Part shown: positions 31,839-56,816 of the stretch, one piece after another | How the letters are laid out: the number at the start of each line of letters is the position of its first letter | Numbering within the stretch: position 1 is the stretch's first letter | NCBI GenBank assembly: GCA_030744875.1 | Contig: JASLPR010000004.1 | Span: forward strand, 1-58,970 | Source of the DNA: Chloroflexota bacterium | Lineage (GTDB): Bacteria; Chloroflexota; UBA11872; VXNJ01 | Length of the DNA: 58,970 bases | Direction of reading: 5' to 3' | The notes under the pieces: generated by a model | Seen by the model: the letters and a program-made list of their open reading frames with translations, nothing else | Databases searched by the model: none | Told to the model about the DNA's origin: nothing | Position numbers and translations under genes: made by a program

Positions 31839-33608
31839 ATGATTTGCTCCATGGCATTACACCAGCACGACATTGTCATAATTGGCGGTGGTGGAGCCGG
31901 GTTGCGGGCGGCGATCGCGGCGGCCGAAGTTGATCCCGACCTCGACGTAGCAGTTGTCTCGAAGGTCTACCCGATGCGCAGCCATACTGTTGCGGCGGAG
32001 GGTGGAATGGCGGGGGTTGTCAAGGACAACGACAGCTTCGAAAACCATATCTATGACACGATCAGCGGGTCGGACTGGCTGGCCGATCAGGATGCGGTGG
32101 AAGAGTTCGTTAAGGAGGCTCCGGGTGAACTCATTCAACTGGAACACTGGGGCTGTCCCTGGAGCCGGGAGCCGGATGGCCGGATATCGGTACGACCCTT
32201 TGGCGGCATGCAGATCGAGCGCACGTGGTACGCGGCGGACAAGACGGGGTTCCACGTGCTTCATTCGCTGTTTCAGACGAGCTTGAAGTACAACAACATC
32301 ACCCGTTACGACGAATGGTTCGCGGCGGAATTGCTGGTGGGCGACGGACGGTGCCAGGGAGTGGTTGCGATAGAGCAGCGTACCGGAGAGGTGCACGGAA
32401 TCGTCGGCGGTGCGACGATCATGTGTACTGGCGGCGGCGGCCAAGTTTTCAAGTTTACGACGAACGCCTCAATCAAGACGGGCGACGGGATGGCGTTGGC
32501 ATATCGGGCTGGGGTGGCGCTCAAGGACATGGAGTTTGTCCAGTACCATCCAACCGGACTGCTGGGATCGGGGATTCTGATCACCGAAGCGACGAGGGGC
32601 GAGGGTGGGGTACTGCTGAACAAGGATGGCCAGCGCTACCTACAGGACCACGACTTGGGTGAACCGCTGGACGTGACGGATCCGGAGCATCCCCAGACAC
32701 GGACGATGGAGTTGGGGCCACGAGACCGGCTTTCTCAGGCCTTCATTCGCGAGGAGGAGGCTGGGAATGTGCTAGTCGGCCCCCAGGGAAGCTATGTGCA
32801 CCTGGACATTCGTCATCTGGGTGAGGAGGTGATCGACACACGGCTGCCATTCGTCCGGGAATTGGCCAGGAACTACGCTGGGGTAGACCCGGTACACGAG
32901 ATGATCCCTGTGCGTCCGGTGGTGCATTACATGATGGGTGGGATCGACACGGGTATAGATGCGGCGACCTCGCTGCCGGGTCTGTATGCGGCTGGTGAAT
33001 GCGCGTGTGTGAGCATCAATGGGGCGAATCGTCTGGGTTCAAACTCACTGACGGAACTCCTGGTGTTTGGCCTCCGGGCGGGGCACAACGCTGCAGGGTT
33101 TGCCCTCAAGCACGAAATCTCGGACAAGGGGGCGCTAGAAGCGCAGGTGGTGACGGTGAAGAAGCGGATCGCGTCTTTCATGGACAAGGGACATGGTGGC
33201 GATGAGCGGATCGCGGTGTTGAAGAACGAAATGGCGGAGACGATGGAAGAGGGGGTGGGGATCTTCCGGCAAGAGGGATCGATGCGGCGGACGTGCGACC
33301 GTCTGGGCGAGCTTCGAGCCCGTTTTGAGAACGTGAAACTTGACGATACCGTCCTTCGGCACAACACGGAATTGAGGGCGGCGTTGGAGCTTGATTTCCT
33401 ACTGGACGTAGCTCAGAGTGTTGCGTTCTCAGCGATTGCGCGGCAGGAATCTCGGGGTTCACACCAGCGGACGGACTTTCCGGCTCGGAATGACGAGAGG
33501 TACCTGAAGCATTCGCTGGCGTACCGCACGGATGGTGAACCGCAAATTGAGTACGGGGATGTGACGATCACTAGGTGGCCGCCGGCAGACAGGGTGTACG
33601 GAAATTGA
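31839..33608 (+). CDS. frdA: Fumarate reductase/succinate dehydrogenase flavoprotein subunit (FrdA type)
   Basis: This 589-residue protein starts at an ATG 8 bases after AAGGGG. The FAD fold [12 protein letters not shown] is followed by [14 protein letters not shown], in which His49 is the covalent FAD site. Long stretches such as WGCPWSRxPDG, [18 protein letters not shown] and [15 protein letters not shown] match Escherichia coli FrdA more than Sdh[16 protein letters not shown] holds the active-site arginine region. The whole operon is lower in GC, with more G-ending codons than mdh just upstream, suggesting separate origin. It forms the catalytic subunit of a quinol:fumarate oxidoreductase. 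Confidence 0.93.
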
Positions 33609-33654
33609 TTGGAATTAAGGCGCGTCTCTCCTTGGCGCTGAGGATGACGGGCTG

Positions 33655-34398
33655 ATGGGCAGCAAGGTTACTTTTGAGGTCTTCCGATTCGATTCCGAAA
33701 CAGAAGAGTCGAGCTATCAGGATTTCGAAATGGAATACGAGGACGAGTGGGTAATCCTGGACGGTTTGAACTATATCAAGGGATTCATCGACGGCTCGTT
33801 GTCGCACCGGTGGTCGTGCCGGATGGGCGTGTGCGGATCGTGCGGGATGATTGTGAACGGATATCCGACGCTGACCTGCAGCACGTTCATTCGCGACTAT
33901 CTGCCTGGGCCGATTCGGGTGGAGCCGCTGACCAACTTCAAGGTCGAACGGGACCTGATCGTCAATCTGGATGACTTTCTGCGGAAACTGCAGCAGATCA
34001 GTCCATGGATCGTGCGTGATGAAGAGAGGGCTATTGAACACGGGGAATACCTACAGACGCCAGCGGAGCTGGCGACATTCAAGCAGTTCACGCTGTGCAT
34101 AAATTGCATGCTCTGTTACTCGGCCTGCCCGGTAGTAAGTCACGAGCTGAACTTCATCGGCCCGGCGGTGCTAACGCTCGGTCACCGCTACAACTTGGAC
34201 TCGCGGGACCAGGGGGCGGACATGCGGTTGGATGAGATGCTGAGCAGTGACGGAATCTGGAGTTGTACGTTCGTGGGCGAATGCTCGCAGGTCTGCCCCA
34301 AGCACGTCGATCCGGCGGGAGCGATACAGCAGTCAAAGGTTTCCGGGGTGATGGCCTATTTCAAGTCGTTCGTGATGTCGTCGGGGTCGCGGGAATGA
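33655..34398 (+). CDS. frdB: Fumarate reductase/succinate dehydrogenase iron-sulfur subunit
   Basis: The 247-residue protein has a [2Fe-2S] ferredoxin domain with SCRMGVCGSCG (about 59-69) and a fourth Cys in LTCST. A C-terminal domain carries CINCMLCYSACP and CSQVCPKHVDP, giving ligands for the [4Fe-4S] and [3Fe-4S] clusters. It passes electrons between FrdA and the quinone in the membrane anchors. GAGGA precedes the ATG. It overlaps frdC by 4 bases. Confidence 0.94.
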   Translation: MGSKVTFEVFRFDSETEESSYQDFEMEYEDEWVILDGLNYIKGFIDGSLSHRWSCRMGVCGSCGMIVNGYPTLTCSTFIRDYLPGPIRVEPLTNFKVERDLIVNLDDFLRKLQQISPWIVRDEERAIEHGEYLQTPAELATFKQFTLCINCMLCYSACPVVSHELNFIGPAVLTLGHRYNLDSRDQGADMRLDEMLSSDGIWSCTFVGECSQVCPKHVDPAGAIQQSKVSGVMAYFKSFVMSSGSRE

Positions 34399-34778
34399 GC
34401 AAGGACGATCGCAGGACACTCGGTGCGGGATGGTGGATGAGGCGCCCGCGATATTGCATGGTTTTCGTCCGCGAAGTAACCGCAATTTTCGTCGTAGCTT
34501 ATGTGATCGTGCTTCTGTCTCTGGTGGTCAGTGTCGGCGGCGACCCGGAATCGTACGAAGCGTTTCGTGATTTCTTGGCATCACCAGGGATGCTGGTGTT
34601 CGGGGTGATTACGCTGCTATTCACGCTGTTCCATTCGGTGACGTTCATCAGCCTGATTCCGCGAGGGATGGCGGTCTGGAGGAACGGGAAACGAGTGCCC
34701 GCGTCGACCATTGCCGGCCCGGGATTCGTTGTCTTTGCGGCGGTCGTGGCGGTAGTGCTACTGGTGCTTTTGCCATGA
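34395..34778 (+). CDS. frdC: Fumarate reductase membrane subunit C
   Basis: The ATG at 34395 overlaps the frdB stop (ATGA), giving 127 residues and three membrane spans (about 25-47, 62-85 and 104-126). RRPRYCMVFVREVTAIFVVAY is the FrdC pattern. No conserved haem histidine pair is evident, which fits haem-less (type D) quinol:fumarate reductases. It overlaps frdD by 4 bases. Confidence 0.88.
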   Translation: MSKDDRRTLGAGWWMRRPRYCMVFVREVTAIFVVAYVIVLLSLVVSVGGDPESYEAFRDFLASPGMLVFGVITLLFTLFHSVTFISLIPRGMAVWRNGKRVPASTIAGPGFVVFAAVVAVVLLVLLP

Positions 34779-35134
34779 ATATTAAGGGTTCGCATGAGGC
34801 TTTCTGGTGGTCATTGTTTTCGGTGGGCGGCGTGGTATCGGCGATGGTAGTCCCGGTGCTTGTGTTCGCCACGATTGTTGGGCCGGGGCTTGGCTGGGAT
34901 GTCTTCGCCGATGCGATGCGGTACGACCGACTCAGTAGACTCTTGGGCAACCAGTTAGTGAAGATGGGGCTGTTTGTAGTCATCGCGCTGTCCCTGTTCC
35001 ACGCGTTCCACCGAATCCGACACCTGATCACGGACCTCCATGTCCCGGTTCCGGGAATGCCGGTTGCAGCTTTGAGTTATCTGTTGGCCATAGTGGGAAC
35101 GGTCGTGGCGGCAATCGTCCTCTGGCTGATGTAA
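34775..35134 (+). CDS. frdD: Fumarate reductase membrane subunit D
   Basis: The 119-residue protein has three spans and the FrdD-like opening HEAFWWSLFSVGGVVSA. HAFHRIRHLITDLHV (about 75-89) follows the second span near the quinone site. With FrdC it anchors FrdAB to the inner membrane. It is the last gene of the operon; a CGGG/CCCG hairpin at 35141-35152 follows the stop. Confidence 0.87.
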   Translation: MNIKGSHEAFWWSLFSVGGVVSAMVVPVLVFATIVGPGLGWDVFADAMRYDRLSRLLGNQLVKMGLFVVIALSLFHAFHRIRHLITDLHVPVPGMPVAALSYLLAIVGTVVAAIVLWLM

Positions 35135-36952: not shown

Positions 36953-37891
36953 ATGGCGATCGCGGAACAAGCGCAGAAGCCCAGGCCGGTGTCCACGCGA
37001 TCCGGAGTCAGCACCGGGGTGGCCGGCTACCTCTTCATCACCCCATCGCTGATCTTCATCGCGATTTTCGTGATCGGCCCGATCATCGGGACGCTCTGGT
37101 ACAGCCTGACCAGCTACGACCTCATGTCGTCGCCCAGGTACATCGGCCTGGCCAACTTCGAGCGGATTATCGACGATGACCGCTTCTCCCGCTCCATGAC
37201 CAACTCGCTGTTGTTCGCATTTGGAACGGTTCCAACGGGCGTTGTTACTTCGCTTCTTCTTGCAGCCCTCATTAACAGGCAAATCCGTGGCATCTACGCT
37301 TTTAGGGCTTTGTTCTACATGCCGGTGGTCAGTTCATTCGTATCAGTTTCTTTGATATGGCTCTGGATGTATGAGCCACAAATGGGCTTGTTGAATGATG
37401 CGTTAGAGGCGTTAGGTTTGCCGAGGTTGAAATGGATGCGATCGGCACAAACTGCGATGCTCTCTATCATCATCATGAGTGTTTGGAAGAACATGGGGTT
37501 AAACATGGTGATCTATCTGGCAGGGCTCCAGGGAGTACCGCCTCACCTATATGAGTCCTCTGAGATTGATGGAGCAGGGAGGATCTCTCAATTTCTACGG
37601 ATAACGGTGCCGCTCCTGGCTCCTACTACCTTTTTTGTGGTGATTGTCTATTTTATCGGAGCTCTGCAGATGTTCGTGCAGGTATTCATCATGACTCAGG
37701 GGCAGGCCAATACCAGCGAGTGGGGAGGACCGCTCGACAGTACACTCACGGTCGTCGTGCTCGTCTATCAGAACGCCTTCGAGTACCTGAAGATGGGTTA
37801 CGCCTCGGCGGTTTCGTTCATGCTGCTGCTCGTTGCCGGGGTAATCACGATCATCAACGCCAGAGTGCTCCGGTACGACATCGGCTGGTAG
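36953..37891 (+). CDS. Sugar ABC transporter permease (MalF/UgpA type), compositionally mosaic gene
   Basis: The 312-residue protein has six spans and a binding-protein-dependent permease domain. The EAA loop is present as SSEIDGAGRISQFLRITVP (about 203-221). It would move a carbohydrate with a partner permease, a binding protein and an ATPase, none of which are adjacent. A paralogue lies at 55875-56816. The DNA from about 37200 to 37690 is 48% G+C with many TTT, TTA, TCT and AGG codons, while both ends of the same gene are about 60% or more, which points to recombination inside the gene. Confidence 0.87.
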   Translation: MAIAEQAQKPRPVSTRSGVSTGVAGYLFITPSLIFIAIFVIGPIIGTLWYSLTSYDLMSSPRYIGLANFERIIDDDRFSRSMTNSLLFAFGTVPTGVVTSLLLAALINRQIRGIYAFRALFYMPVVSSFVSVSLIWLWMYEPQMGLLNDALEALGLPRLKWMRSAQTAMLSIIIMSVWKNMGLNMVIYLAGLQGVPPHLYESSEIDGAGRISQFLRITVPLLAPTTFFVVIVYFIGALQMFVQVFIMTQGQANTSEWGGPLDSTLTVVVLVYQNAFEYLKMGYASAVSFMLLLVAGVITIINARVLRYDIGW

Positions 37892-41685: not shown

Positions 41686-41710
41686 CTCAAGCACAGGAGC
41701 GAGGCGCACC

Positions 41711-43183
41711 ATGAACGTCGTCGTAATCATGAACGACACCTGGCGTCACGACAGCCTGGGCGTCAACGGCAACGAAGTGATCCACACCCCGGTGCTCGAT
41801 CAGTTCGCCGCCGAGAGCGCCGTCTTCGATCGCAGCTACGCCGGTTCCTACCCGACGGTGCCGATCCGCCACGACCTGCTCAAGGGCCGCTTCGGCGCGC
41901 CCTTCCACGGCTGGCTACCGCTGGAGTGGGACGCGCTGACGCTGCCCGAAGTCATGCGCCAGAATGATTACGTCTCGATGCTGATCCTGAGCACCCCGCA
42001 TCTCATCAACTACGGCTACGGCTTCGACCGACCCTTCCACGCCTGGGAGATGATCCGCGGCGCCGAAATCGACCGCTGGAAGACCGACTACTTCCAGGAA
42101 TTCGCGCTGCCGCACCGCGAGAAGTTCAACAGCGACGAGCACCTGGCCCTGTACCACCGCGGCGCGACCTACCGCCGGACTGAGGCCGAAAAGGACGCCC
42201 CGCGGGTCATGCAGGCGGCCTGCGACTGGCTGGAACGCAACTCCGGCCATGACCAGTTCCTCCTCTGGGTTGATTCATTCGACCCCCACGAGCCGTGGGA
42301 CCCGCCCGATCACTACATCGACCTCTACAACCAGGACTACGAAGGCGCCGACATCCATTGGCCCAAGTACATCGACGCTTCCTACTACACGCCGGAAGAG
42401 GCCGAGCGCATGCGCGCCCGTTACATGGGCGAGATCACCATGTGCGATCGCTGGATCGGCCGCGTGCTGGACACCATCGACCGCGTCGGCCGCCGCCACG
42501 ACACGATCGTCATCGTGATGTCCGACCACGGTCACCTTTTCGGAGAGCACGGCCGCATCTCAAAGTGGGGCGCCTGGCTGGAACTCTGGGACGAATGCGC
42601 CCACCAGTTCTTCATGGTGCGCCACCCTGACGGGCCGGGTTCGAGTCGCCACGTGGGCGGCCTGATCCAGCCGGCCGATCTTGCCCCGAGCATCCTGGAA
42701 ATGCTCGGCATCAAGCCGCCCGAGGAAATGGGCATCCAGGGTCATTCGTGGCTGCCGCTGATTGACGGGCGCAAGCGCTCGATCCGCCCGGCCGCAATCT
42801 CCGCATTCCACCCACGCCAGGGATTTATCGACGGCTGCCACAACCACGTTTCGCCCGACGACCAGTGGACGGCCGCCACGATCACCGACCGCCGCTGGCA
42901 GTTGATCGACTTCCCGGAGACCGAGCGGCGTGAACTCTACGATCTATCGGCGGAGGGCGGCTCGCTCCAGAACGTCATTTCCGGCAACGCCGCCGAGGTG
43001 GAGCGCCTGCACGGCCACCTGCTGGACCACCTCAACCGTCACGACGCGCCGGACTGGCTCCGCACGGTGTTCCGCGATGAGTTTGACGCCACGGTTCAGC
43101 CGCCGCCCGGGGAATGGCGCGATAACGTGCGCAAACGCAGCACGCCGAGGGCGCTCACGCCGAAGGCCAACATCGTCGGCTAG
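41711..43183 (+). CDS. Sulfatase-fold hydrolase with Thr in place of the formylglycine Cys
   Basis: The ATG at 41711 gives 490 residues. The alkaline-phosphatase-superfamily fold is clear: MNDTWRHDSLG at the N-terminus (metal Asp9), DSFDPHEPWDPP, and SDHGHLFGEHG for the second metal ligands. The sulfatase signature CxPxR is TVPIR (Thr49 to Arg53), so formylglycine cannot form. A Thr nucleophile is used by phosphodiesterase and phosphatase members of the superfamily. No signal peptide is visible. The paralogue at 54293-55747 has the same substitution at the same position. Confidence 0.83.
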   Translation: MNVVVIMNDTWRHDSLGVNGNEVIHTPVLDQFAAESAVFDRSYAGSYPTVPIRHDLLKGRFGAPFHGWLPLEWDALTLPEVMRQNDYVSMLILSTPHLINYGYGFDRPFHAWEMIRGAEIDRWKTDYFQEFALPHREKFNSDEHLALYHRGATYRRTEAEKDAPRVMQAACDWLERNSGHDQFLLWVDSFDPHEPWDPPDHYIDLYNQDYEGADIHWPKYIDASYYTPEEAERMRARYMGEITMCDRWIGRVLDTIDRVGRRHDTIVIVMSDHGHLFGEHGRISKWGAWLELWDECAHQFFMVRHPDGPGSSRHVGGLIQPADLAPSILEMLGIKPPEEMGIQGHSWLPLIDGRKRSIRPAAISAFHPRQGFIDGCHNHVSPDDQWTAATITDRRWQLIDFPETERRELYDLSAEGGSLQNVISGNAAEVERLHGHLLDHLNRHDAPDWLRTVFRDEFDATVQPPPGEWRDNVRKRSTPRALTPKANIVG

Positions 43184-54292: not shown

Positions 54293-55747
54293 CTAGTCGG
54301 CGTCGTTCCCGGTCGGCCAGGGATCGGTGAGCATCAGGCCCTGCTGGCGCGAGGTCAGATAGGGCGTGCAGCCCGGGTGGCCGCGGAACTCCTCGAAGTA
54401 TTCCGGGATCGATCCGCCGGCGTCATCGATGGCCTTCTGCAGCAGTTCAGCCACCACGTCCGGGTGGTCATCGGCGACGTTGTTCAGCAGATCCGGGTCA
54501 TCGGCCAGGCGGTATAGCAGTGGTTCTTCGCCCCAGATCGTCACGTTGCACCACCACTCGTCGGTGATGGTGGTTATCAGGGTTCCCCAGGCGATCGTCA
54601 CGTAGTCGCGGTGCGAGGGATCGCCGGCGAGCGCCGCCGGCCAGATGTCCTGCCCCTCGGTGGGGCTGTCCACGCCGGTCGCCGCCAGGATCGTCGCCGC
54701 CGTGTCGGTGTTGGTCACGAAGCCGTCGTACGTCTGCCCGGCGCCGGCGCCCGAAGGGTGCCTCACCAGCAGCGCCAGGTCGGCCACCGCCCGCGTCAGC
54801 GGGTGTCCCTGTTTGCTGACCAGGCCCTTTTCGGCCGGTCCCAGGCCCAGATTATGACCGTGATCCGAGGCCACGATCACCATGGTGTCGTCCAGTTGCC
54901 CGGTCAGGCGCAAGGTGTCCATAAAATGTCCGAACCAGCGGTCGACGAAGGTCACGTTGCCGGCGTAGTTGGCCTGGCAGCGCTTGAGTTCCGCGGGGGT
55001 GAACACGCCTTCGTGGGTGGCGTAGAGCGACTGGATGATGTGCGGGATCTCGTCGCCGCTGTCGTCGTAGAGGCGGCGGTACATCTCCGGCGGCTCCCAG
55101 GGCTCGTGAGGATCGAAGGAGTCGACCACCAGGAAGAAAGGGTCGGCATCGACGTTTTCGGCCAGCCAGCGCGACGCCTCGCGGAAGACGGCGGCCGGGA
55201 AGAATTCCTCCTCGCCGCGGCGCGACTGAACGTTCTTCAGGTACTGGTCGAAAAACGGTATCTGCCGGTGCATCGACGGGAAATGCTCGGGAATAACGCG
55301 CTCGATCGTCCCGTCCGGCAGCGGCGGGCCGGAACGGTACTTGTCGGTCTCCTGGCCGCGGATCCACTGCCACTCGTCGAAACCGCGATGGAAGTTCTTC
55401 GACGGCTTCATCTGGTGGTACACGTCGGTGAAGAGAGCGGTTCGGTAGCCAGCGGCACCCAGCAGCTCCGAGATGGTGTCTTGCTCCTCGGGGATGGGGC
55501 CCCAGCCCGGCGCGGCAAAAGGGAAATCGCCCTTCAGCGGCCGGTGATTTGCAAACGGGAAGGTGCGCTGCCCGGTGTGGATTGCGCGGCGGAACGGCAG
55601 GGTCGGCAACGCCTCTGGGAAGGCCCGGTCAAAACGCATCGACTCGGCGGCAAACGCATCGAAGTTGGGCGTCTGGATCCAATCGTTGCCGTAGGCGCCG
55701 ATGTGGTCCTTGCGCAGCGTGTCGAAGACAACCAGTACGACGTTCAT
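54293..55747 (-). CDS. Sulfatase-fold hydrolase with Thr in place of the formylglycine Cys (paralogue)
   Basis: The 484-residue protein starts 7 bases after AGGAG. It shares with the 41711 gene the N-terminal metal Asp (VVFDTLRKDHIGAYG), DSFDPHEPWEPP and the ASDHGHNLGLG metal loop. The CxPxR signature is again TLPFR with Thr49 to Arg53, at exactly the same residue numbers. It is convergent with AOR copy 2 and runs in the same direction as the ABC permease upstream. The substrate is unknown. Confidence 0.83.
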   Translation of the reverse strand: MNVVLVVFDTLRKDHIGAYGNDWIQTPNFDAFAAESMRFDRAFPEALPTLPFRRAIHTGQRTFPFANHRPLKGDFPFAAPGWGPIPEEQDTISELLGAAGYRTALFTDVYHQMKPSKNFHRGFDEWQWIRGQETDKYRSGPPLPDGTIERVIPEHFPSMHRQIPFFDQYLKNVQSRRGEEEFFPAAVFREASRWLAENVDADPFFLVVDSFDPHEPWEPPEMYRRLYDDSGDEIPHIIQSLYATHEGVFTPAELKRCQANYAGNVTFVDRWFGHFMDTLRLTGQLDDTMVIVASDHGHNLGLGPAEKGLVSKQGHPLTRAVADLALLVRHPSGAGAGQTYDGFVTNTDTAATILAATGVDSPTEGQDIWPAALAGDPSHRDYVTIAWGTLITTITDEWWCNVTIWGEEPLLYRLADDPDLLNNVADDHPDVVAELLQKAIDDAGGSIPEYFEEFRGHPGCTPYLTSRQQGLMLTDPWPTGNDAD

Positions 55748-55874: not shown

Positions 55875-56816
55875 CTAGAAATCTACGTCGTAGCTCAGCA
55901 GGCGCGTGTTGATGAGGGTGACGAGGCCGATGATGAGGAACAGGACGAAGGACATCGCCGAGGCGTAGCCCATCTTCAGGTACTCGAACGCGTTCGAGAA
56001 GACGAGCAGTACGACCGTCACCGTGCTGTCGACCGGCCCTCCGGTGAGGGCGCTGGTGTTCTCGCCGACCATCGTCATTATCATCACCTGGATAAACATC
56101 TGCAACGCCCCGATGAAATAAACGATGACGACGAAGAAGGTAGTTGGGGCCAGCAGTGGGAACGTGATCCGGAAGAACTGCGAGACCCGACCGGCACCGT
56201 CGATTTCGGCGGCCTCGTAGAGATGCCCGGGAATGCCCTGTAATCCGGCCATGTAGATGACCATGTTCAACCCCATGTTCTTCCACACGCTCAAGAGGAT
56301 GATCGATAAGAGGGATGTGTCCTGGCTCCTGAGCCACTTGATCCGGGGGATTCCCAGGGTCTCAAAGATGTCGTTGAAAAGACCAAGTTGCACGTCGTAG
56401 AACCAGAGCCAGATCAGAGAGACGGCGACGAACGAACTCACCACCGGCATGTAGAACATGGCCCTGAAACTGTAGATGCCGCGGATGCTGCGATTAATCA
56501 GCATCGCCAACAGCAGTGATGTGACCACTCCGGTCGGCACGGTGGCGAAGGCGAAGGCCAGGGTGTTGCGGATGGCAGCCGGGTAGCGATTGTCCTCCAG
56601 CAGGTTGCTGTAGTTGCGCAGTCCGACCCACTTCGGCGCCGACATCAGGTCGTAGTCGGTGAAGCTGTACCAGAGTGCGCCGAAGATGGGGACTACAACG
56701 AACGCAAGAATGAAAATCAATGACGGGGCGATGAAGAAGTAGCCCGCCAGGCCGCCGCGGTTGCCGAAGCGGCGCGCCGCCCTGCGTGATTTGACTGGTG
56801 CTTCAGTGACTGCCAT
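55875..56816 (-). CDS. Sugar ABC transporter permease (MalF/UgpA type), second paralogue
   Basis: The 313-residue protein has six spans and the EAA loop EAAEIDGAGRVSQFFRITFP (about 205-224). It is closely related in sequence to the permease at 36953-37891 along its whole length, including the unusual SAxKWVGLRNY/SSPRYIGLANF region. Again no partner permease, binding protein or ATPase is next to it. GGGGGA precedes the ATG. The central third has somewhat lower GC than the ends but not as sharply as in the first copy. Confidence 0.87.
   Translation of the reverse strand: MAVTEAPVKSRRAARRFGNRGGLAGYFFIAPSLIFILAFVVVPIFGALWYSFTDYDLMSAPKWVGLRNYSNLLEDNRYPAAIRNTLAFAFATVPTGVVTSLLLAMLINRSIRGIYSFRAMFYMPVVSSFVAVSLIWLWFYDVQLGLFNDIFETLGIPRIKWLRSQDTSLLSIILLSVWKNMGLNMVIYMAGLQGIPGHLYEAAEIDGAGRVSQFFRITFPLLAPTTFFVVIVYFIGALQMFIQVMIMTMVGENTSALTGGPVDSTVTVVLLVFSNAFEYLKMGYASAMSFVLFLIIGLVTLINTRLLSYDVDF

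Follow-up and report, generated by a model that had tools for sequence, protein, structure and literature searches.

The gene for an ABC sugar permease of the MalF/UgpA type in an uncultured Chloroflexota bacterium changes its base composition twice within a single open reading frame. We analysed a window of 58,970 nucleotides, which is contig C4 of a MAG (2.3 Mb, 97 contigs, 89% complete, 4.1% contamination) referred to here as G000. The analyses below established the composition switch and its boundaries, the foreign codon signature between them and the rarity of such a pattern in the G000 genome. We conclude that the gene is probably a recombinant, in which homologous recombination exchanged the core for that of a low-GC relative. 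An uncultured Chloroflexi MAG on deposit belongs to the same family.

The permease matches the Pfam domain PF00528 (binding-protein-dependent transport permease) with 48.7 bits, above the gathering cut-off of 26.4. The closest NCBIfam model is UgpA (NF007852), where the score of 158.6 bits lies below the curated cut-off of 335, and the protein is thus not classified as a UgpA equivalog. Related proteins of solved structure are MalF, AlgM1 and SugA. The structure model of the permease is poor (pLDDT 51.7) and was used for approximate helix edges only. Codons 201-224 encode what we take, from general knowledge of PF00528 proteins, to be the EAA loop, the expected ATPase-coupling motif. Upstream of the permease gene are succinate dehydrogenase genes and a gene for a beta-lactamase-fold protein, downstream is a DUF3105 gene. 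A complete sugar ABC importer operon, with an adjacent binding protein and second permease, is not found at this locus; in a profile search contig C4 had no match to PF01547, and the sole other PF00528 match was the second permease, 18 kb away. The succinate dehydrogenase operon (31839-35134) has a GC3 of 0.71-0.75, lower than most of the window, and the fit to home-genome codon usage is weaker in all of its genes. Sulfatase genes recur near permease copies in several genera (window 41702-43183 and 54293-55747; L069 306-3473; L080 3085-4542).

Table 1. Features of the permease gene, the second copy in the window, and loci of the permease family. G001 and G004 are sister genera.
Feature	Position	Strand	Remarks
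MalF/UgpA-type ABC sugar permease gene	36953..37891	+	312 aa, single open frame
5' segment of native composition, codons 1-86 (N-terminus, TM1, periplasmic loop, start of TM2)	36953..37210	+	GC3 0.90; G000 codon model favoured
Tract of foreign composition, codons 87-237 (conserved core, TM2 to TM5)	37211..37663	+	Log-odds 65; nearest protein is the G000 C36 copy (86%)
EAA loop ESSEIDGAGRISQFLRITVPLLAP, codons 201-224	37553..37624	+	Within the foreign tract; residues D206 and G207 do not vary across alignment A1
30-bp conserved stretch LQMFVQVFIM, codons 238-247, proposed crossover homology	37664..37693	+	Exact match to a G004 copy; inside the 3' confidence interval
3' segment, codons 248-312 (P3 loop and TM6)	37694..37891	+	G000 codon model favoured; composition native by codon 265 at the latest
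Second orphan permease copy	55875..56816	-	67% aa identity; uniform GC3 0.84; compositional control
Loci of the MalF-type expansion	G000 C4, C11, C17, C19, C20, C22, C34, C35, C36, C50, C72; G004 L077-L079; G001 L080-L086

The G+C content is 61.8% at 36953-37200 (GC3 0.90), 48.0% at 37202-37680 (GC3 0.57) and 57.6% at 37682-37891 (GC3 0.81). These values agree with the sequence-only reading, which had described about 48% G+C with AT-ending codons at 37201-37680 and about 60% on the 5' side of the core. Its claim that the protein stays in frame and matches a paralogue also holds, as no stop interrupts the frame and the protein can be aligned with its homologues over the full length. Along the gene, GC3 remains at 0.90 up to about codon 86, at about 0.53-0.57 up to about codon 237-264, and then at 0.82-0.83. 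A fit of GC3 with two change points gained 24.0 lnL, compared with a maximum of 13.4 among 2000 codon permutations. It confined the 5' switch to codons 86-90 (37208-37220). The 3' switch was located less sharply, in codons 236-267 (37658-37754), with the maximum-likelihood boundary at codon 264.

The codons within this tract resemble those of another genus. A maximal-segment scan of codon usage selected codons 87-237, with the log-odds of 65 pointing toward the low-GC sister genus G001; the best segment among the 36 other genes of the window reached 12.5. Under synonymous codon models, codons 89-250 gave a lnL of -196.8 with G001 usage and -253.4 with G000 usage. Both flanks favour the home genome, by 50 units for codons 1-88 (-75.5 for G000, -125.9 for G001) and by 25 units for codons 251-312 (-59.8 and -84.4). 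The mean G+C content is 64-69% in the sampled G000 contigs and 42-47% in the G001 loci, compared with 48% in the tract.

Such a dip was not found elsewhere in the sampled part of the genome. Among 265 genes tested in about 458 kb of G000 stretches, taking a decrease of 0.25 or more as the threshold, no further genuine intragenic dip was detected; four other genes passing the threshold turned out to be mis-calls of the start codon or reading frame. Intact full-length G000 copies of the family are uniformly GC-rich (overall GC3 0.81-0.88) and lack the core dip. The copy on C35 was considered as a second mosaic and rejected, since reading it in its proper frames gives a GC3 of 0.81-0.92. This copy is a pseudogene (L076 7810-8579): a stop codon interrupts it, the frame changes, and a segment near the C-terminus is lost.

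Phylogenies for separate segments, the check proposed in the sequence-only reading, were weakly resolved. The core falls among the G000 copies, nearest to that of C36 (86%), the 3' end is nearest to the G001 copy L080, and the 5' part forms a long branch. This 5' part has a mean identity of 51% to the G000 copies, versus 62% among the G000 copies themselves. When the window protein was entered as separate rows for ends and core, the ends joined L080 (support 93/89), and the tree keeping ends and core together was rejected in the AU test (10.99 lnL, p 0.0098). The identical split was applied to seven other copies as controls (p 0.50, 0.19, 0.33, 0.02, 0.49, 0.42 and 0.06). For one of the seven a common lineage was likewise rejected (p 0.0215), another was borderline (p 0.061), and the segments are short; the conflict therefore supports recombination without being decisive. 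Different ancestry of core and ends is thus supported but not proven. An exact synteny between the permease locus and L080 was considered and discarded. Both copies lie near sdhA, but the gene order differs and hence synteny is only a weak hint.

Signs of recombination in the same region come from the sister genus G004, where four MalF-type permease genes form a tandem array (L077 7918-12139; C9:126465-130638). Two neighbouring copies of this array share an identical stretch of 193 bp in the core. Their silent differences amount to 0.17 in the core versus 0.44 in the ends (p 5.5e-6), and codons 172-236 contain 59 silent sites without any difference (p 1.7e-5). The near-identity ends at codon 247/248, close to the end of the tract in the window gene. 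The pattern is the trace expected from gene conversion of the core, and judging from these sequences the family plausibly recombines in that region; it does not show that the event in the window took the same course.

The 30-bp stretch at the 3' edge of the tract (Table 1) adjoins the end of this conversion-like tract. The 5' boundary lies within TM2, at a motif conserved in the protein, and at this junction none of the fetched copies is identical to the gene over 17 bp or more. That conserved stretches were used as crossover homology, as with the 30 bp at the 3' edge, is supported but not proven. One G000 copy (C11; L074 837-1508) is truncated at residue 88, with unrelated DNA upstream. This is the residue at which the 5' switch of the window gene falls, and the correspondence may be a coincidence.

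The search for a donor of the core covered the order, the class and 400 genomes of the phylum and gave no close match. A scan of viral contigs revealed nothing, and a pattern scan of genome contigs returned only G001-type, Centralia MAG and distant copies. The best match found anywhere has 86% identity at the protein and about 73% at the DNA level and is itself GC-rich. That the searches yielded no donor does not speak against recombination as such. In its amino acids the core resembles paralogues of its own lineage, being nearer to the G000 copies than to the low-GC G001 copies, but its codons are low-GC. This points to a low-GC relative as the probable donor, one that carries the same set of expanded paralogues and lies outside the genomes searched, and not to another allele of the permease locus. 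Homologous replacement of the core, as proposed in the sequence-only reading, remains the best-supported explanation; its 'diverged allele' as the source of most of the transmembrane core is too simple, given that amino acids and codons disagree.

From these data we infer the donor and the route of entry as follows. In a native GC-rich permease gene, some 450-530 bp of the conserved core, from TM2 to TM5 and with the EAA loop, would have been exchanged in frame. The incoming piece would be the corresponding part of a homologue belonging to a relative with roughly 45-50% G+C. Foreign DNA was likely taken up first and then integrated by a double crossover or a gene-conversion event.

The chief rival is an assembly artefact, which would leave a similar picture if conserved stretches had anchored a bubble in the assembly graph and the assembler had thereby swapped in the core from a low-GC relative living in the same community. 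The gene is known from a single contig of a MAG with the fragmentation and contamination given above, the family is repetitive, and joining at homologous k-mers would likewise keep the frame. The longest exact match near the 3' junction is 30 bp and that between G000 and G004 copies is 44 bp, and the true donor could share longer exact stretches than the sampled copies. However, two joins in a single gene are needed, and no exact stretch common to the GC-rich G000 and low-GC G001 copies exceeds 21 bp, which is short relative to typical final assembly k-mers; both points make a chimera less likely. At the 5' junction exact matches are shorter than 17 bp, and a low-GC population was not seen in the bin, all sampled contigs lying at 64-69% G+C. 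We consider a chimera unlikely.

The order of events might also have been inverted: a whole low-GC gene was gained, and native GC-rich copies subsequently overwrote it at both ends. This yields the same GC-rich/GC-poor/GC-rich pattern, and the recombination seen in G004 would provide for it. Yet the ends group with the G001 copy L080 and resemble no sampled G000 copy, as the identity values of the 5' part show, which makes overwriting less likely; a source paralogue might be missing from the incomplete MAG. In sum we regard this course as improbable. Least credible, to the point of being nearly negligible, is a reduction of GC3 in the core by codon selection or an overlapping element without any recombination. 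Hydrophobic codons do depress the G+C content of the permease core at codon positions 1 and 2 (0.39 at position 2). The dip is not explained by amino-acid composition alone, however, because copies with about 80-86% identical core proteins keep a GC3 near 0.8-0.9 at the same codons, and the shift touches most amino acids and fits a foreign codon table.

The probable replacement of the core by homologous recombination concerns a member of an unusually expanded family. About 8-12 MalF-type copies are present per genome in G000, G001 and G004 (about 12 copies or fragments in G000), and each of the three has a single cognate MalG-type subunit, 82-84% identical between them, and a single close binding protein of full length (72%). 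Contig C50 of G000 carries the cognate-type operon of binding protein, MalG and MalF, and coordinates suggest the same arrangement in G001 and G004. Nearly all MalF-type copies in G000 are orphans; a profile search revealed no other PF00528 partner on the G000 contigs bearing them. One G001 copy (C17) neighbours a more distant MalG-type gene. The orphan copies may share one MalG-type partner. As the family is multi-copy, incoming homologous DNA has many targets, and a need for every copy to fit the same partner and ATPase would probably make the core interchangeable. One could go further and imagine that the single MalG-type partner serves all of the 8-12 MalF-type subunits, and that recombination, both inside a genome and across genera, combines an exchangeable core with different variable ends, diversifying substrate uptake, with the window gene as a fresh inter-genus product. 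We consider this broader scheme unlikely.

The gene represents a clean case in which recombination has probably exchanged a membrane protein's core between organisms about 20% apart in G+C content, and the swap can be recognised because codon usage in the tract is still that of its source. The expansion of orphan permeases is the more unusual part of the finding. Where one partner faces many orphan ABC permeases, as in these uncultured Chloroflexi, such exchange may be frequent, and the interchangeability of subunits is open to testing. Like MalF/UgpA-type sugar ABC permeases in general, the protein has a PF00528 match above cut-off and an EAA-type loop, and it is structurally related to MalF, AlgM1 and SugA; it differs in that no adjoining binding protein or MalG-type partner was found and in belonging to an expansion of orphan single subunits.

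The process itself is well known, and the permease gene is a new instance of it. In Campylobacter jejuni and Campylobacter coli, two species about 15% apart in DNA, introgression by interspecies homologous recombination has produced mosaic alleles with known donors (PMC3139442). As in these mosaics, part of the window gene probably comes from another species, with the frame intact; unlike them, the donor is unsampled, the nearest known DNA to the core is only about 73% identical, and the tract was found by composition. For Mycobacterium tuberculosis, gene conversion between paralogues has been reported (PMC12046097). The cases agree in involving a multi-copy family with tracts common to several copies, here in G004, and differ in that the codon usage of the window tract points outside its own genome.
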